The translations under genes and the position numbers were made by a program. A DNA stretch of 37,000 nt from assembly GCA_036557285.1 (NCBI GenBank), contig DATBHW010000047.1:1-37000 (forward strand). Reading direction: 5' to 3'. This DNA comes from Ktedonobacterales bacterium (lineage in GTDB: Bacteria; Chloroflexota; Ktedonobacteria; Ktedonobacterales; DATBGS01). The notes beneath the pieces are model-generated. The model was not told the DNA's origin and ran no database searches. It saw only the letters and a program-made list of their open reading frames with translations. Of the stretch, positions 3,946-34,614 are shown piece after piece (within the stretch, counting starts at the first letter, position 1; each line of letters opens with the position of its first letter).

Positions 3946-4191
3946 CCCCTGCCGCCTGGAAGGACGGCGCTACACCCCCGCCCCTGCCGCCTGGAAGGAC
4001 GGCGCTACACCCCCGCCCCTGCTCGTGCGGAGGGTGTGTGAGGCGCTCTTAGAATCAGACTTACTTGTACCGCCGCCCGTAGCGCCGCCGTCTCGGCGGC
4101 CAGCCGCTGCGCCAGTGCCAACGTCCGTCCTCCAGCGCGAACGTTCCGGCGGTCCAACGTCGAGCCGCCTTCCAGGCGGCGCTACAAGTAA
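3946..4191. repeat. REP/BIME-like repeat, locus 3, with a 35-bp tandem repeat
   Basis: Two exact 35-bp tandem units (3946-3980 and 3981-4015), each carrying a GCCGCC-tggaa-GACGGCG half-hairpin and CTAC, are followed by a left arm near 4069-4100 and a right arm ending in GGCGGCGCTACAAGT at 4191. It fills the divergent gap between the GNAT gene and the MaoC gene. Confidence 0.8.
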
Positions 4192-4217
4192 AAATACATG
4201 AATCGCCAGCGGGCTGT

Positions 4218-5219: not shown

Positions 5220-6341
5220 TTAAATCGTGCTGACCACGCTGGCCTGGCGGCGCAGCCCCCAGACTGACAGCAGGAAGATCAGCAGCGTGCTGCCGACCAC
5301 GATGCCAGCATCCAGCAGAATGCTTTCCAGCGTGGTCTGACTCCGCAGCGCCCTTGCAATTCCCTCCCCCAGCCAGTAGGTTGGCAAGACCTTGATCATC
5401 TGTGATACCAGATTGTTCCCCACCAACTCGATCTGATCTGAGAAAAAAATGGGTACAATAAAGAGAATCATCGCAATGCCGCTGAAGCCGCCCAACGCGC
5501 CTTGCGATTTGAAGATGCAGCCAGCCAGCGCGCCCAGCGCGACGCTGAAGAGCGAACCCAGCAGCACAAAGACCAGCAGCAGCGGTATCTGCCCCATAAA
5601 TCCCCTGGCAATCCCCAGCGCAATAAGCGACAGCAGCAGTTGATAGCCGAGCGCCACCAGCAGCTTGGCCGAAATCACGTCCACCCAGGAGGCCGGAGAG
5701 ACCATCAGCATGCGCAGCGTCTTCTTCTCTTTCTCCTCAATGATCAATCCTGGCACGACAGCCATCCCAACGAAGAAAGAAGAAAGCAGGGACGCCAGCG
5801 CATAAAACCCCACCAGAAAGTCGGCAATACTATGTGTGCTGGGCGGATTGATCGTGCTGGCGCTCAGGGTAATTGGCGCTGGACTGACCACCGCGCGGCT
5901 GTAATTGGCAAGCGCGCTCTGCAACAGTTGGCTCTGCTGGTTGTTAATATCATCCCCGTTGAGATAGAGGTGCAGCGCGGGCCGCTGCTCTGCGCGCAGG
6001 CTGGCCTCAAAGTCAGGTGGCACGACCAATCCCACCGCATACGACGCTTTCTTCTTAGCGCCGTTGGCCCCAAAAGCATCGGCCACCTGCTGCGCCGAAC
6101 TGGCCTGCGTGATGTGAGAATTGGAAAAAGCCCCGGTCAATACCTGCTCTACGCCCCGGTTTGGCTGATAGCCAGGGTCATAGACCAGAATCTCGGTCGT
6201 GCTGGTGCCCAGCAAAATCCCAAACACCAGAAACAGGACGGCCAACATGATGGGTGACAGCAGCGTGAACAGGCTTTGCTTATTCAAGAGCAGGTCCAGC
6301 GCGTCTTTGCGCGCAATGGCGCGAATGATTCGTAGGCGCAT
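5220..6341 (-). CDS. ABC-2 type exporter permease
   Basis: A 373-residue permease of the ABC-2 class (NatB/YhaP-like). It has an N-terminal membrane segment near 24-45, a ~130-residue extracytoplasmic loop (near 46-175), then about five membrane segments in the second half. The cytoplasmic EEKEKKTLRMLMVSPAS stretch is the coupling-helix region characteristic of the family. AGAGGAG lies 8 bases before the ATG. It starts 27 bases after the ATPase gene, so the two form one minus-strand operon and one exporter. Substrate unknown; ions, peptides or drugs are all possible for this class. Confidence 0.9.
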   Translation of the reverse strand: MRLRIIRAIARKDALDLLLNKQSLFTLLSPIMLAVLFLVFGILLGTSTTEILVYDPGYQPNRGVEQVLTGAFSNSHITQASSAQQVADAFGANGAKKKASYAVGLVVPPDFEASLRAEQRPALHLYLNGDDINNQQSQLLQSALANYSRAVVSPAPITLSASTINPPSTHSIADFLVGFYALASLLSSFFVGMAVVPGLIIEEKEKKTLRMLMVSPASWVDVISAKLLVALGYQLLLSLIALGIARGFMGQIPLLLVFVLLGSLFSVALGALAGCIFKSQGALGGFSGIAMILFIVPIFFSDQIELVGNNLVSQMIKVLPTYWLGEGIARALRSQTTLESILLDAGIVVGSTLLIFLLSVWGLRRQASVVSTI

Positions 6342-6368: not shown

Positions 6369-7256
6369 CTATGCCGGGCGCACGCCCGCGACTTCAATAA
6401 AAACTTCCTCCAGCGTCGCCTCGCGCGAATGCACCGCCCGCACCCGGCCCGCCGCCATCCACCCCGCCAGCCGGGCCTGGTCGGCGGGGTTATCCATGCT
6501 CAGCGTCACCTCGTTCAGCGAATCGCCCCCACGCTCGCCCGGCTGCCCATCATCCAGCGTCACCACCAGCGCGCGCTGCCCATGCGTCAGCTTCAGCGTG
6601 CGCGGCGTGTCGTTGGCGACCAGACGCCCATTGACGATGAAGGCCACCTGCTGGCAAAGCTGATCGGCCTCTTCCATCAGATGCGTCGTCAGCAGAATCG
6701 TTGTCCCTTCCTGGCAAAGCTGCGCCACCGTCTCGCGCACCTCGCGCGCCGAGATGGGGTCCAGCCCCCGGCTCGGCTCATCCAGAAACAGCACCTGGGG
6801 CCGATGCAGCAGTGCGCGTGCAATCATCAGCCGCTGCTTCATGCCATTGGAAAACGTGCGCACTGGCTCTCTGGCCCTATCGCGCAAGTGTACCAGATTC
6901 AGCACCTCGTCTACCCGATTGGTCTGCACGCCATAGAGCCAGCAGGCGAACTCCAGGTTGAGCCGCGCCGACAGCCGCTCGTACAGATTCTGCTCCTCGA
7001 AAACCACGCCGATGCGCTCTTTCAACCGGGCGCGCTCTTTGATGACATCGCAGCCCGCCACGCGGGCGCTGCCGCCGTGAGGGTCGATCTGCCCGGTCAG
7101 CAGGCGAATCATCGTTGTCTTACCCGCGCCGTTGGGGCCGAGCAGCCCAAAGATTTCGCCGCGCCGGACGCTGAAACTGATGCCTGCTACCGCCTCATTC
7201 GCGCCAAAGCTGCGGCGCAGGTCGTTGGCCTCGATCATCACATCAGGTGTATCCAT
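6369..7256 (-). CDS. ABC exporter ATP-binding protein
   Basis: The 295-residue nucleotide-binding subunit of the exporter whose permease follows. Walker A is GPNGAGKT, the Q-loop region is VFEEQNLYERL, the signature FSNGMKQRLMIARAL is a variant of LSGGQ, Walker B is VLFLDEPSRGLDP, and the switch His is in TTHLMEEA. All catalytic residues are present. A C-terminal ~80-residue extension is typical of NatA/DrrA-type ATPases. The ATG at 7256 (MDTPDVMIE) has AGAGAGG six bases upstream; in-frame ATG 7262 and TTG 7277 are less likely starts. Divergent to it is a second, degenerate ATPase fused to LytTR, its probable regulator. Confidence 0.92.
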   Translation of the reverse strand: MDTPDVMIEANDLRRSFGANEAVAGISFSVRRGEIFGLLGPNGAGKTTMIRLLTGQIDPHGGSARVAGCDVIKERARLKERIGVVFEEQNLYERLSARLNLEFACWLYGVQTNRVDEVLNLVHLRDRAREPVRTFSNGMKQRLMIARALLHRPQVLFLDEPSRGLDPISAREVRETVAQLCQEGTTILLTTHLMEEADQLCQQVAFIVNGRLVANDTPRTLKLTHGQRALVVTLDDGQPGERGGDSLNEVTLSMDNPADQARLAGWMAAGRVRAVHSREATLEEVFIEVAGVRPA

Positions 7257-7348
7257 AAGCATCCTCTCTTTATTCAAGCTCCACAGAACGATGAGCGCCC
7301 TGTGTTGTTCTCATCTCAACTCTAACATCGGAAACAGCGGCTTTCTAC

Positions 7349-7450
7349 AAAAATCGGCTGAGTGGAGCCAGGAGCGGGTCAAGAGGCGCAAATCGGGGAG
7401 TCACTGAACGGCCACTGCGCCGAATGGAGCAAAATCGCGGCTGAACGGCG
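7349..7450. promoter_or_regulatory. Direct repeats, candidate LytTR operator region
   Basis: CTGAACGGC occurs exactly at 7404-7412 and 7441-7449, with a relative (CCGAATGGA) at 7420-7428 and CTGAGTGGA at 7358-7366. Several are preceded by AAATCG (7350-7356, 7390-7396, 7432-7437). The set lies between the divergent exporter and LytTR-fusion genes. LytTR proteins bind short direct repeats about two helical turns apart; the 7420/7441 spacing (21 bases) fits, the others less well. Confidence 0.45.
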
Positions 7451-7487
7451 CGGCGGAAACACAGCCATATGATGGGTAGCCCTGTGC

Positions 7488-7493
7488 TACAAT
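7488..7493 (+). promoter_or_regulatory. Possible -10 of the ABC-LytTR gene
   Basis: TACAAT with no recognisable -35 at 17 bases. The CTGAACGGC repeats lie 40-90 bases upstream, a position that would suit an activator. Confidence 0.4.
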
Positions 7494-7565
7494 ACCCCTG
7501 GCATGGCAGGCACACTCACGTTCTGCTGAAACCGCTGGCTCCCTATGCTATATGAGGTTCCGGCA

Positions 7566-8570
7566 ATGTTGCAGGTACGGCGGCTGGAAAAGATCATCGA
7601 ACAACGCACTGTGCTTTCTATCGAGCAGCTTGATGTCGCGCCGGGCGAAGTCCTGGGCGTCATCGGCCCGGTGGGCAGTGGCAAAACGCTGCTCATCCGC
7701 CTGCTCTCTGGCATCGTCGTCCCCAGCGGCGGCAGCGTCATCTTCGATGGGCAGGATATTCACCACGCCCCGGCGCTGCGGGCGCGGATGGGCCTGCTCT
7801 TTGAGGAAGACCTGCTCTACGAGCGCCTTTCCGCGCAAACCAATCTGGAAACCTACTGCCAGTTACACGGCCTGCCAGGCAGCCGCGCCAGAGAGGCGCT
7901 GGCCCTGGTTGGGCTGAGCGACCAGATGAAGACCAGGGCAAACAAGCTCCCATCCCCCGCGCAGCGCCGCCTCGCCTTTGCGCGCGCCTTGCTGGCACAA
8001 CCCGCCATCTTACTGCTTGATCAGCCTACGCTGCGCGTGGACCTGGATACCCAGGCACTCTTCGCCCGATTAATTACCCAGGCAGCCAGCGATGGCGCGA
8101 TGGTGGTCCTGACCGACGAAGACCTCTCCTGGGCCGGAAAGTGCTGCACCCGTATAGTCGAACTGGAAGGCGGGCGCGCCACCAACAGCTACCAGATCGA
8201 AGCGGAACACGGACCAGCCGCGCCTGAGCGCCTCATCCCCTACAAAGTACCGGCCCGCAAAGATGACCGCATCGTCCTCTATGACCCTGGCGATCTGCTC
8301 TATGCCACCAGCCGCGACGGCAAAACGATCCTGCGCACCGCCAATGAAGAAGCCACGACCAACCTGACGCTCCAGGAACTGGAAAACCGCCTGGTTGGTC
8401 GTGGCTTCTTCAAGGCCCACCGCGCCTATCTCGTCAACCTGCAACACATCAAGTCCGTCATCCAATACACCCGCAACAGCTATACCCTGCAATTGGACGA
8501 CAAGCAGGAAACGCTTGTCCCCCTGAGCAAACAATCCGAAAAAGAACTTCAGGAACTGCTCGGATATTAA
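7566..8570 (+). CDS. Degenerate ABC ATPase fused to LytTR DNA-binding domain
   Basis: A 334-residue fusion. Residues 1-~215 are an ABC ATPase with intact Walker A (GPVGSGKT, 34-41) but a decayed remainder. The Q-loop Gln is replaced (FEEDLLYERL), LSGGQ becomes PSPAQRR (129-135), the Walker B Glu is Gln (LLLDQP, 149-154) and the switch His is acidic (LTDED). Residues ~240-334 are a LytTR domain (IVLYDPGDLLYATSRDG, GRGFFKAHRAYLVNLQHI, NSYTLQL). The protein probably binds but poorly hydrolyses ATP and acts as a transcription factor rather than a transport engine. It shares LYERLSA-x2-NLE with the divergent exporter ATPase, suggesting duplication. GAGG sits before ATG 7566; ATG 7545 is an alternative. 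It overlaps the convergent hydrolase stop by 4 bases. Confidence 0.85.
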   Translation: MLQVRRLEKIIEQRTVLSIEQLDVAPGEVLGVIGPVGSGKTLLIRLLSGIVVPSGGSVIFDGQDIHHAPALRARMGLLFEEDLLYERLSAQTNLETYCQLHGLPGSRAREALALVGLSDQMKTRANKLPSPAQRRLAFARALLAQPAILLLDQPTLRVDLDTQALFARLITQAASDGAMVVLTDEDLSWAGKCCTRIVELEGGRATNSYQIEAEHGPAAPERLIPYKVPARKDDRIVLYDPGDLLYATSRDGKTILRTANEEATTNLTLQELENRLVGRGFFKAHRAYLVNLQHIKSVIQYTRNSYTLQLDDKQETLVPLSKQSEKELQELLGY

Positions 8571-10249: not shown

Positions 10250-10530
10250 ACTTGTAGCGCCGCCCCCTTCGGGAAGGGCCGCTTGCCTCGGCTGGGCCTC
10301 GGCACTCTCGCTCCCGTTGGTCGCTCGCGCGTCCCTTCCTGGCGGCCATCGCTGCGCCAGGGCGAACGCTCGCCCGCCAGGCCAGCGTAGCGGCGAGCCA
10401 ACGTTGAGCCGCCTGGAAGGCGGCGCTACAAGTGGCGTTCGCCCTCCAGGCCAGCGGACCAGCAGGCCAGCGTCCAGCCGCCTGGAAGGCGGCGCTACAG
10501 GTAACACGCCACGCCCGCCAACACCTCCTG
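10250..10530. repeat. REP/BIME-like repeat, locus 5
   Basis: The left arm ACTTGTAGCGCCGCC has the CCCTTCGGGAAGGG hairpin variant. Two right arms with loop TGGAA end in CTACAAGT (10435) and CTACAGGT (10503). The CCAACACCTC flank ends at 10529. It occupies most of the divergent gap between the PH-like protein and the methyltransferase; nothing else is seen in the gap. Confidence 0.82.
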
Positions 10531-11306: not shown

Positions 11307-12656
11307 CTATGACTCCCAGACGCCCAGCAGGTCCGTCACTTTCTGGTACGCCTGGTCGGCCTCAGCCGCGCGCCCCAGCGCCTGGAGCGCATTGCCTTTT
11401 TCCAGCCAGACTATGCCCCAGGCAGGGTCGCACTGAATCGCCTGCTCGTAGGCGGCCAGCGCCTCTTCGTAGCGCGCCAGACTCGCCAGCGTCTCGCCCT
11501 GCTTGAAATACGCCAGCTTATCATCCGGCCTGAGCGCCAGCGCCTGCTCGTAAGCGGCCAGCGCCTCTTCAGGGCGCGCCAGCCCCTTCAGCGCGTCACC
11601 CTTCCCGCGCCAGGCGTCGCCGCCAGCCGCGTCATAGGTAATCGCCTGCTCGCAGACGGCCAGCGCCTCCTCGTAACGATCCAGCGCAACCAGGGCCAGA
11701 CCTTTCACCGTATAGCCGCCCGCCTTCATGGGATCCAGGCGCAGCGCCTCTTCAGCGGCGGCCAGCGCCTCTTCGGGGCGGTCCAGCGCCAGCAGGGTAA
11801 TCCCCTGGCCCGCGTGACCTTCAGGCAGCGTGGGAACCAGTTGCAAGCTCTGCTCATAGGCGGCCAGCGCCTCTTCAGGGCGTTGCAGCTTCGTAAGCGC
11901 AAATGCCCTGGCAAGCCAACCGTTTACATCGGCTGGCTCCTGTTCACAGGCGCGCTCAGCGGCGGCCAGCGCCTCCTCAGCGCGCTGCAAGCCCCACAAC
12001 GCTATCGCTTTGCGACCAGGGGCAAAGGTCAGCGGCGGATTCAGCGCCAGCGCCCGCTCGCAGGCTTCCAACGCCTCCTCGTAACGCTGAAGGACGAGCA
12101 GCATATCAATGGTATGACGCCAGGCCAGGCGGTGAGACCCGTCCAGCGCCAGCGCACGTTCGCAAGCTTCCAACGCCTCCTCGTAACGCTGAAGCTGCTC
12201 CAGCGCCATGCCCTTGTTACTCCAACACAGCGCCAGCTCCGGGTCGAGCGCCAGCGCCCGCTCGAACGCCGCCAGCGCCTCGTCGTAGCGTTGCAGCCCC
12301 ATCAAGGCGCTGCCCTTGTTGTTCCAGGCAATCGCAAACTCGGTGTCCAGGGCCAGCGCGCGCTCCGAACAATCAAGGGCTTCAGCAAAGCGCCCCATCT
12401 CCACCAGCGCCTGGCTTTTGCTGTTCCAGGCAAACACAAAGTTGTCATCCAGGGCCAGCGCGCGATCATACGCCGCCAGCGCCTCTTCAGGCCGTTGGAG
12501 ATTGGCGAGGGCCACGCCTTTGCCCGTCCAGAGTTCATAGTGATCGGGCGTCTCCTTCAGCGCCCGCTCGAAGACATCCAACGCTTCCTCATAGCGTTCA
12601 TCCGCCAGGAGTTGCAGACCCTGATTCAGCCAGCGGTCAACGGCTTTTGCGCTCAT
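11307..12656 (-). CDS. TPR-repeat protein, 13 tandem repeats
   Basis: A 449-residue protein made almost entirely of about thirteen 34-residue tetratricopeptide repeats; the helix-B core reads (Y/P/A)EEALAAYERALALDP in most units. No signal peptide, membrane segment or catalytic domain is visible, so it is a cytoplasmic protein-binding scaffold of the long TPR type common in Chloroflexota and cyanobacteria. The last repeat (RAAEADQAYQKV) is the most divergent and caps the array. The repeats are also visible as DNA periodicity. The ATG is preceded by a GGGGGA run. The 5' gap holds repeat locus 6. Partner unknown. Confidence 0.92.
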   Translation of the reverse strand: MSAKAVDRWLNQGLQLLADERYEEALDVFERALKETPDHYELWTGKGVALANLQRPEEALAAYDRALALDDNFVFAWNSKSQALVEMGRFAEALDCSERALALDTEFAIAWNNKGSALMGLQRYDEALAAFERALALDPELALCWSNKGMALEQLQRYEEALEACERALALDGSHRLAWRHTIDMLLVLQRYEEALEACERALALNPPLTFAPGRKAIALWGLQRAEEALAAAERACEQEPADVNGWLARAFALTKLQRPEEALAAYEQSLQLVPTLPEGHAGQGITLLALDRPEEALAAAEEALRLDPMKAGGYTVKGLALVALDRYEEALAVCEQAITYDAAGGDAWRGKGDALKGLARPEEALAAYEQALALRPDDKLAYFKQGETLASLARYEEALAAYEQAIQCDPAWGIVWLEKGNALQALGRAAEADQAYQKVTDLLGVWES

Positions 12657-12831: not shown

Positions 12832-12976
12832 CCACTGGTAGCGCCGCCTTCCAGGCGGCTAGCGATTCGCCAGGGCGAGCGTGCGCCCGCCAGGCCAGCG
12901 TAGCGGCGGGCCAACGTTGAGCCGCCTGGAAGGCGGCGCTACAAGTGGCTGGCCGCCTGGAAGGCGGCGCTACAGG
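12832..12976. repeat. REP/BIME-like repeat, locus 6
   Basis: The left arm (ACTGGTAGCGCCGCC-ttcca-GGCGGC) pairs with right arm GCCGCC-tggaa-GGCGGCGCTACAAGT. A second, isolated right arm ends at 12974. It sits between two minus-strand genes. Confidence 0.82.
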
Positions 12977-12988
12977 GAGAACACCCAT

Positions 12989-20040: not shown

Positions 20041-20250
20041 ACTTGTAGCGCCGCCTTCCAGGCGGCTAGCGATTCGCCAGGGCGAGCGTTCGTCCTCCAG
20101 GCTAACGGACCGGCAGGCCAGCGTTGAGCCGCCAGGATGGCGGCGCTACAGGTACCACCCCTCCGCAGCCCCCTGCCGCCGGGATGGCGGCGCTACAGGT
20201 ACCACACCTCCGCAGCCCCCCTGCCGCCAGGATGGCGGTGCTACAAGTGG
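20041..20250. repeat. REP/BIME-like repeat, locus 8
   Basis: The left arm ACTTGTAGCGCCGCC-ttcca-GGCGGC is followed by three successive right-arm hairpins with loops AGGAT, GGGAT and AGGAT, each followed by CTACAGGT or CTACAAGT. It ends 12 bases before the TetR promoter. It accounts for most of the 19885-20311 gap. Confidence 0.83.
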
Positions 20251-20261
20251 CCTCCCTACCC

Positions 20262-34403: not shown

Positions 34404-34614
34404 ACTTGTAGCGCCGCCCCCCTTCGGGAAGGGCCGCTTGCCTCGCCTGGGCCTCGGCAGTCTCGCTCCCGTTGGTCGCTCGCGCGTCCCTCCTGGCGGC
34501 TCAACGCTGGCCTGCTGGTACGGTGGTCTGGAGGGCGAACGCTCGCCCTGGCGCAGCGTTGGCCGCCTGGAAGGCGGCGCTACCAGTACCATGCCTCGCT
34601 TGCCAACACCTCAT
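34404..34614. repeat. REP/BIME-like repeat, locus 12
   Basis: The left arm ACTTGTAGCGCCGCC has the CCCTTCGGGAAGGG variant, followed by the GGGCGAACGCTCGCCC internal palindrome. The right arm is GCCGCC-tggaa-GGCGGCGCTACCAGT. The TTGCCAACACCTCAT flank ends at 34614. Very similar in order to locus 5. Confidence 0.85.

Follow-up and report, generated by a model that had tools for sequence, protein, structure and literature searches.

In the MalK-MalT and BceAB-BceRS systems, the state of a transporter, or the flux through it, is passed to a transcription factor. Most regulators with a LytTR domain bind upstream of the -35 element and activate transcription, and the operator of one LytTR protein, CoxC, is made of direct repeats stepped by 18-21 bp (PMC11347149). 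The family examined here, in which a LytTR domain follows an ABC cassette, is common in Bacilli, a group with laboratory strains among its members, and its closest functional cassettes are the DrrA-type exporter ATPases (TIGR01188). The fusion is already annotated in public databases (presumably with an InterPro/PIRSF entry for this pairing of LytTR and ABC ATPase), so the architecture itself is not new; relatives on Priestia plasmids carry the annotation 'LytTR family transcriptional regulator', and no fusion-specific model was among the best 25 NCBIfam matches. We found no publication on the fusion, its operator, its target or its loss of ATP binding in a search that covered the subscription literature in part, and an earlier published description of the fusion may exist.

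Here we describe a member of this family in a stretch of 37,000 nucleotides (the window) from a Ktedonobacterales bacterium of the phylum Chloroflexota. The regulator and two adjacent exporter genes form a small module:

7566-8570, plus strand: regulator gene, a predicted catalytically dead ABC cassette plus LytTR, 334 amino acids (open reading frame, Pfam, AlphaFold pLDDT 91.7)
7566-8210, plus strand: ABC-cassette domain, residues 1-215 (Pfam PF00005; structural match to ABC nucleotide-binding domains over residues 1-213)
8265-8561, plus strand: LytTR DNA-binding domain (Pfam)
6369-7277, minus strand: exporter ABC ATPase, DrrA-like, predicted target gene 1 (Pfam, TIGR01188; Walker A, signature, Walker B and switch His intact)
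5220-6341, minus strand: ABC-2 permease, predicted target gene 2 (PF12698, E 8e-32)

The regulator is a single open frame from the ATG at 7566 to the stop at 8568-8570; a second in-frame ATG lies at 7545, but the relatives begin at the position of 7566. Pfam gave ABC_tran (E 2.8e-24), LytTR (E 1e-21; PF04397, 77.4 bits, above the cut-off of 22.6) and a weak overlapping AAA_21 match, with no receiver domain (Response_reg) before the LytTR domain. The frame and the Pfam matches confirm the first-pass annotation, a reading of the letters alone that had described an ABC cassette fused to a complete LytTR domain, and the predicted structure bears it out: AlphaFold places a confident, canonical cassette before a short flexible linker and the LytTR domain. 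The best PDB match to the predicted cassette (residues 1-213) is 4yer (Z 29.8, rmsd 1.6, 213 residues aligned); the nearest solved structures are ordinary ABC motors, and the matches listed contain cassettes only, with no ABC-LytTR chain. This regulator is the sole LytTR protein detected in the source genome assembly. Translation of the neighbouring exporter ATPase probably starts at 7256, and this protein, at 271 bits against a TIGR01188 cut-off of 312, is DrrA-like by resemblance.

Elsewhere in the window a short palindromic repeat, GCCGCCTGGAAGGCGGCGCTACA..., a REP/MITE-like interspersed element, occurs in 17 direct copies and in more inverted ones (positions include 1550-1584, 4164-4198, 10408-10511, 12921-12986, 20128-20257 and 34562-34596), and the 5.1-Mb genome holds 509 copies with at most 2 mismatches (control 0). 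On the minus strand, 11307-12656 encodes a tetratricopeptide-like protein of about a dozen similar 34-residue repeats, with a DNA period of 102 bp.

Close relatives of the regulator are found in 20 of 47 genomes of its class, and in the rest of the phylum the fusion is rare (13 of 251 genomes, a sample that includes class members). A scan of Bacilli yielded 461 confirmed candidate stretches, and 80 loci were kept; the motif counts given below refer to 101 full-length members, 19 from Chloroflexota and 82 from Bacilli. A full-length alignment covers the window protein and the Bacilli fusions, which are about 28% identical to it along their full length.

The association with the exporter is close. 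Of the 80 Bacilli loci, 75 have the exporter ATPase directly next to the regulator and 79 have the permease nearby, and no third near-universal neighbour gene was found. The genes are co-directional in Bacilli, with the regulator upstream of the exporter, and divergent in the window, and the predicted operator stays with the exporter in either arrangement. Regulator and exporter occur together in 17 of the 47 genomes, one alone in 3 and the other alone in 1, and neither in 26 (Fisher p 6.8e-9, an indicative value, as the genomes are related to one another). In two genomes the exporter lies on a different contig from the regulator, its promoter still accompanied by the repeat array and the -10 box described below; in a single case, a fragmented assembly, the exporter was present, the regulator was not detected and the array was absent, and in two incomplete assemblies with the regulator no exporter homolog was detected at E 1e-75.

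Two kinds of locus deserve separate mention. In one genome, a single-contig assembly, the regulator and the exporter ATPase are both apparently split by frameshifts, and the pair may be decaying together. On two Priestia megaterium plasmids (L035 and L036) the fusion and the exporter lie near mersacidin-type lantibiotic genes, and the annotation of L036 splits the fusion into two genes, ABC and LytTR.

The gaps between regulator and exporter in Bacilli (n=74) contain up to six direct repeats, TGCTCC(A/T)TTCACC or TGCTCCATTCAGC, with at least two above threshold in 56 of the 74; 72 of the spacings measure 21 bp and 17 measure 20 bp. A position weight matrix built from these Bacilli gaps alone, and then applied to Chloroflexota intergenic regions, gave chains of three sites in 13 of 13, all confined to the exporter strand, and shuffling reached such scores in 0-1 of 300 cases; across the 37-kb window its top match is the regulator-exporter intergenic region. 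A motif-free search also recovered repeats there, 62 and 83 bp apart, and the four recognisable repeats occupy slots 1, 2, 4 and 5 of a 21-bp array:

7440-7452, minus strand: predicted operator repeat 1, CGCGCCGTTCAGC (Bacilli matrix, genome match)
7419-7431, minus strand: predicted operator repeat 2, TGCTCCATTCGGC, 21 bp on from repeat 1 (Bacilli matrix, genome match)
7398-7410, minus strand: degenerate third slot of the 21-bp array, placed by spacing, with no clear repeat
7378-7390, minus strand: predicted operator repeat 3, TGCGCCTCTTGAC
7357-7369, minus strand: predicted operator repeat 4, GGCTCCACTCAGC, promoter-proximal
7319-7324, minus strand: exporter -10 box TAGAGT, 32 nt past the proximal repeat, without a -35 consensus
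7488-7493, plus strand: probable regulator -10 box TACAAT, conserved as GTGCTACAATA (visible in the intergenic regions of relatives)

In the predicted 21-bp arrays of both phyla, successive direct repeats thus lie some two helical turns from each other, as in a LytTR operator. Between the end of the proximal repeat and the -10 box, 65 of 72 Bacilli have 32 nt, and the 13 relatives of the window have 31-33 nt. A sigma-70 consensus scan of the intergenic region gave no match, and a terminator-like match at 7355-7370 was dismissed, as it overlaps repeat 4.

Among the Bacilli loci, the fraction above threshold is 0.82 before the exporter versus 0.01 before the regulator; repeats lie upstream of the regulator in just 1 of 80, and autoregulation in this group was rejected. 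In the source genome the single exact two-site match is the regulator-exporter gap, and a search there for a wider regulon gave scattered one-mismatch matches only (control 1); in four other genomes nearly all operator matches fall at the regulator-exporter locus. By comparative sequence, then, the predicted operators mark the regulator as dedicated to a single target, the exporter. The first-pass annotation had proposed that the regulator controls its neighbouring exporter, a claim that has strong support: conserved arrays precede the exporter in both phyla, exporters unlinked to the regulator keep the array, and the two genes co-occur. We regard such control as very probable.

In the explanation that we favour, to which we assign, taken whole, a probability of roughly 0.5, the LytTR domain very probably recognises the tandem TGCTCCATTCAGC repeats, in 21-bp steps, upstream of the exporter promoter (no further target array was detected in the source genome), and the regulator would then activate exporter transcription. 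Activation is likely, and we infer it from an array placed just upstream of a promoter that has a conserved -10 box and no -35 consensus. The same regulator and operator might instead repress the exporter, much as the LytTR repressor CoxC overlaps the -35 (PMC11347149), and the next downstream 21-bp slot would indeed overlap the -35 position; the recognisable array, however, ends about 9 bp upstream of that position, at its fixed 32 nt from the -10 box, and the promoter has no -35 consensus, so that repression seems to us rather unlikely.

The state of the ABC domain can be read from five sites, all on the plus strand:

7665-7688, plus strand: Walker A, GPVGSGKT, residues 34-41, intact
7818-7829, plus strand: YERL, residues 85-88, the best conserved motif of the ABC part (aligned with LptB F90-L93)
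7947-7970, plus strand: degenerate signature, LPSPAQRR, residues 128-135
8007-8024, plus strand: degenerate Walker B, with Gln153 in place of the catalytic Glu
8118-8120, plus strand: switch-His position, occupied by Glu185

The Q-loop position is E80, and the residue calls of the first-pass annotation (Walker A intact; Q-loop Gln, LSGGQ, catalytic Glu and switch His replaced) are correct throughout. It had counted all four replacements as decay, which does not hold for the Q-loop: the Gln is absent from the regulator, but it has also given way to Glu in the working exporter of the window and is missing from 90 of 90 cognate exporter ATPases (FEEQN or LTDNS), in which all other catalytic motifs are intact. 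A Q-loop change therefore says nothing about decay, and we ruled it out as a sign of it. Homologs with the same fusion and all catalytic motifs, which would speak against decay, were looked for and number 0 of 101. The substitutions are conserved in part: signature and switch His are lost in 101 of 101 full-length homologs, with differing replacement letters, which argues against both chance and sequencing error, whereas the catalytic Glu is variable: 7 of the 19 members from Chloroflexota and 79 of the 82 from Bacilli retain it. What remains of a functional ABC ATPase in the regulator is the cassette fold, without an LSGGQ-type signature, catalytic Glu or switch His, and its ABC domain is, judged from these residues, almost certainly non-catalytic, with the fold kept and residues needed for hydrolysis lost.

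Walker A itself is intact in 13 of the 19 Chloroflexota members, broken in the other 6 and absent from all 82 Bacilli members, and its state requires at least four changes on the tree. The ABC part of most family members is thus predicted to be unable to bind ATP in the usual way. ATP sensing is consequently not the general mechanism of the family, and the 'ATP-binding sensor' of the first-pass annotation is not supported in that role; nucleotide binding could still matter in the window protein or in the Chloroflexota branch that bears a Walker A.

The conservation of the ABC part is concentrated elsewhere. YERL sits just after the Q-loop, and its Y85 and R87 are kept at 96-100% in both groups, against a mean identity of 40-52% for the ABC part. 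The stretch LYERLSA-x2-NLE, which had been noticed in both the regulator and the divergent exporter ATPase (6369-7277, minus strand), is indeed common to the two, and LY.RL is present in 89 of 90 cognate exporters versus 2 of 54 other ABC paralogs of the same genomes. A YER-containing pattern served in part of the locus search; since just 2 of the 82 proteins from Bacilli match it, the conservation of YERL is not an artefact of the search. In the alignment, Y85, L88 and R140 of the regulator correspond to F90, L93 and R150 of LptB, a cluster that binds the permease coupling helices, as shown by mutation and cross-linking (PMC5082905).

We therefore prefer a reading in which the ABC domain would be a sensor of transporter state: as a decoy motor it would use the retained YERL surface to dock on the permease coupling helix or the exporter complex, and the activity or occupancy of the exporter would set the amount of regulator free for DNA. 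As the module comprises no more than three genes, one of these, or something that they handle, is the likely signal. That the ABC domain docks on the transporter is the weakest step, advanced tentatively and at somewhat less than even odds; more doubtful is the general form of the proposal, in which the pseudo-cassette throughout the family would dock on the permease of the exporter that it controls, and the state of the pump would directly control pump transcription, with no kinase involved and no ATP bound by the sensor. A need for YERL in folding, or mere descent from the exporter lineage, may also explain why the motif was retained.

Other roles for the ABC domain account for some of these data. 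As a nucleotide sensor, the first-pass reading, it would bind but not hydrolyse ATP or ADP, with DNA binding set by the bound state. The Walker A of the window protein and of the 13 Chloroflexota members and the canonical predicted fold suit such a role, as does Gln153, since exchanging the catalytic Glu for Gln is the classic way to trap ATP in engineered nucleotide-binding domains. We nevertheless find it improbable: the Bacilli members, all 82 without a Walker A, have the same operator and target, the motif has changed state repeatedly on the tree, and no member has kept the signature or the switch, both of which an ATP sandwich dimer requires. The ABC part might instead be a scaffold, used for dimerisation or spacing only, in a regulator that is constitutive or set by its amount. 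Tandem-repeat binding does suggest oligomers, and the ABC part evolves fast (within the two groups, mean identities are 52% and 40%, against 81% and 72% for the LytTR part), but its best conserved residues belong to the cluster that contacts the permease, not to the nucleotide-sandwich interface, and a constitutive factor would have no need of near-universal linkage with one exporter, which makes this role, too, a poor prospect. The dedication of each regulator to one exporter is the usual logic of drug-induced pumps and would accord with an ABC domain that directly binds the exporter substrate or another small ligand, giving a ligand-induced activator; the predicted fold, however, has no added domain or insert able to form a ligand pocket, and to our knowledge the nucleotide-binding domains of known transporters do not serve as substrate-binding domains, so that we think direct binding very unlikely.

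The phylogeny of the ATPase part bears on where the regulators came from. Those of Chloroflexota and Bacilli form one clade (SH-aLRT 99), and regulators and cognate exporters lie together on one side of a branch with a support of only 60, so that an ancient descent of the regulator from the exporter lineage is plausible on the sequence evidence. When the ABC part was taken by itself, the grouping of the Chloroflexota regulators with their own exporters survived an AU test (p-AU 0.35), and the deeper origin of the regulators is accordingly uncertain. The 'duplicated transporter subunit' proposed by the first-pass annotation thus gains weak support, and any such duplication would be ancient; a local duplication of the neighbouring exporter was rejected as the main reading on account of the position of the regulator among those of Bacilli.

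With target, operator and promoter geometry now defined, regulation in this family is directly testable. If the dead cassette reads the transporter, the module would offer a simple, kinase-free means by which the supply of the pump follows its use. It would also clearly exemplify an enzyme domain that lost its chemistry and was retained as a docking surface.

The regulator resembles CoxC (MHYT-LytTR) and RcoM (LytTR) in having an N-terminal putative sensor and a C-terminal LytTR domain, and in an operator of at least two direct repeats, in steps of two helical turns, near the -35 (PMC11347149); unlike these proteins, whose N-terminus senses gas, the window family has a dead ABC cassette, up to six copies of TGCTCCATTCAGC and an exporter as its predicted target. 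With the ABC-LytTR fusions of Bacilli (such as WP_034655952.1, from a Priestia megaterium plasmid) it shares domain order, exporter neighbourhood and operator type, but those lack Walker A and lie on the same strand upstream of the exporter, whereas the window member has a Walker A and is divergent. It differs from DrrA in scoring 122.4 bits against the TIGR01188 cut-off of 312.45, in lacking signature, Glu and His, and in its fusion to LytTR. The transporter-coupled control proposed here would, by analogy, place it beside MalK-MalT and BceAB-BceRS, with the difference that the putative coupled factor would itself carry a motor-like domain.
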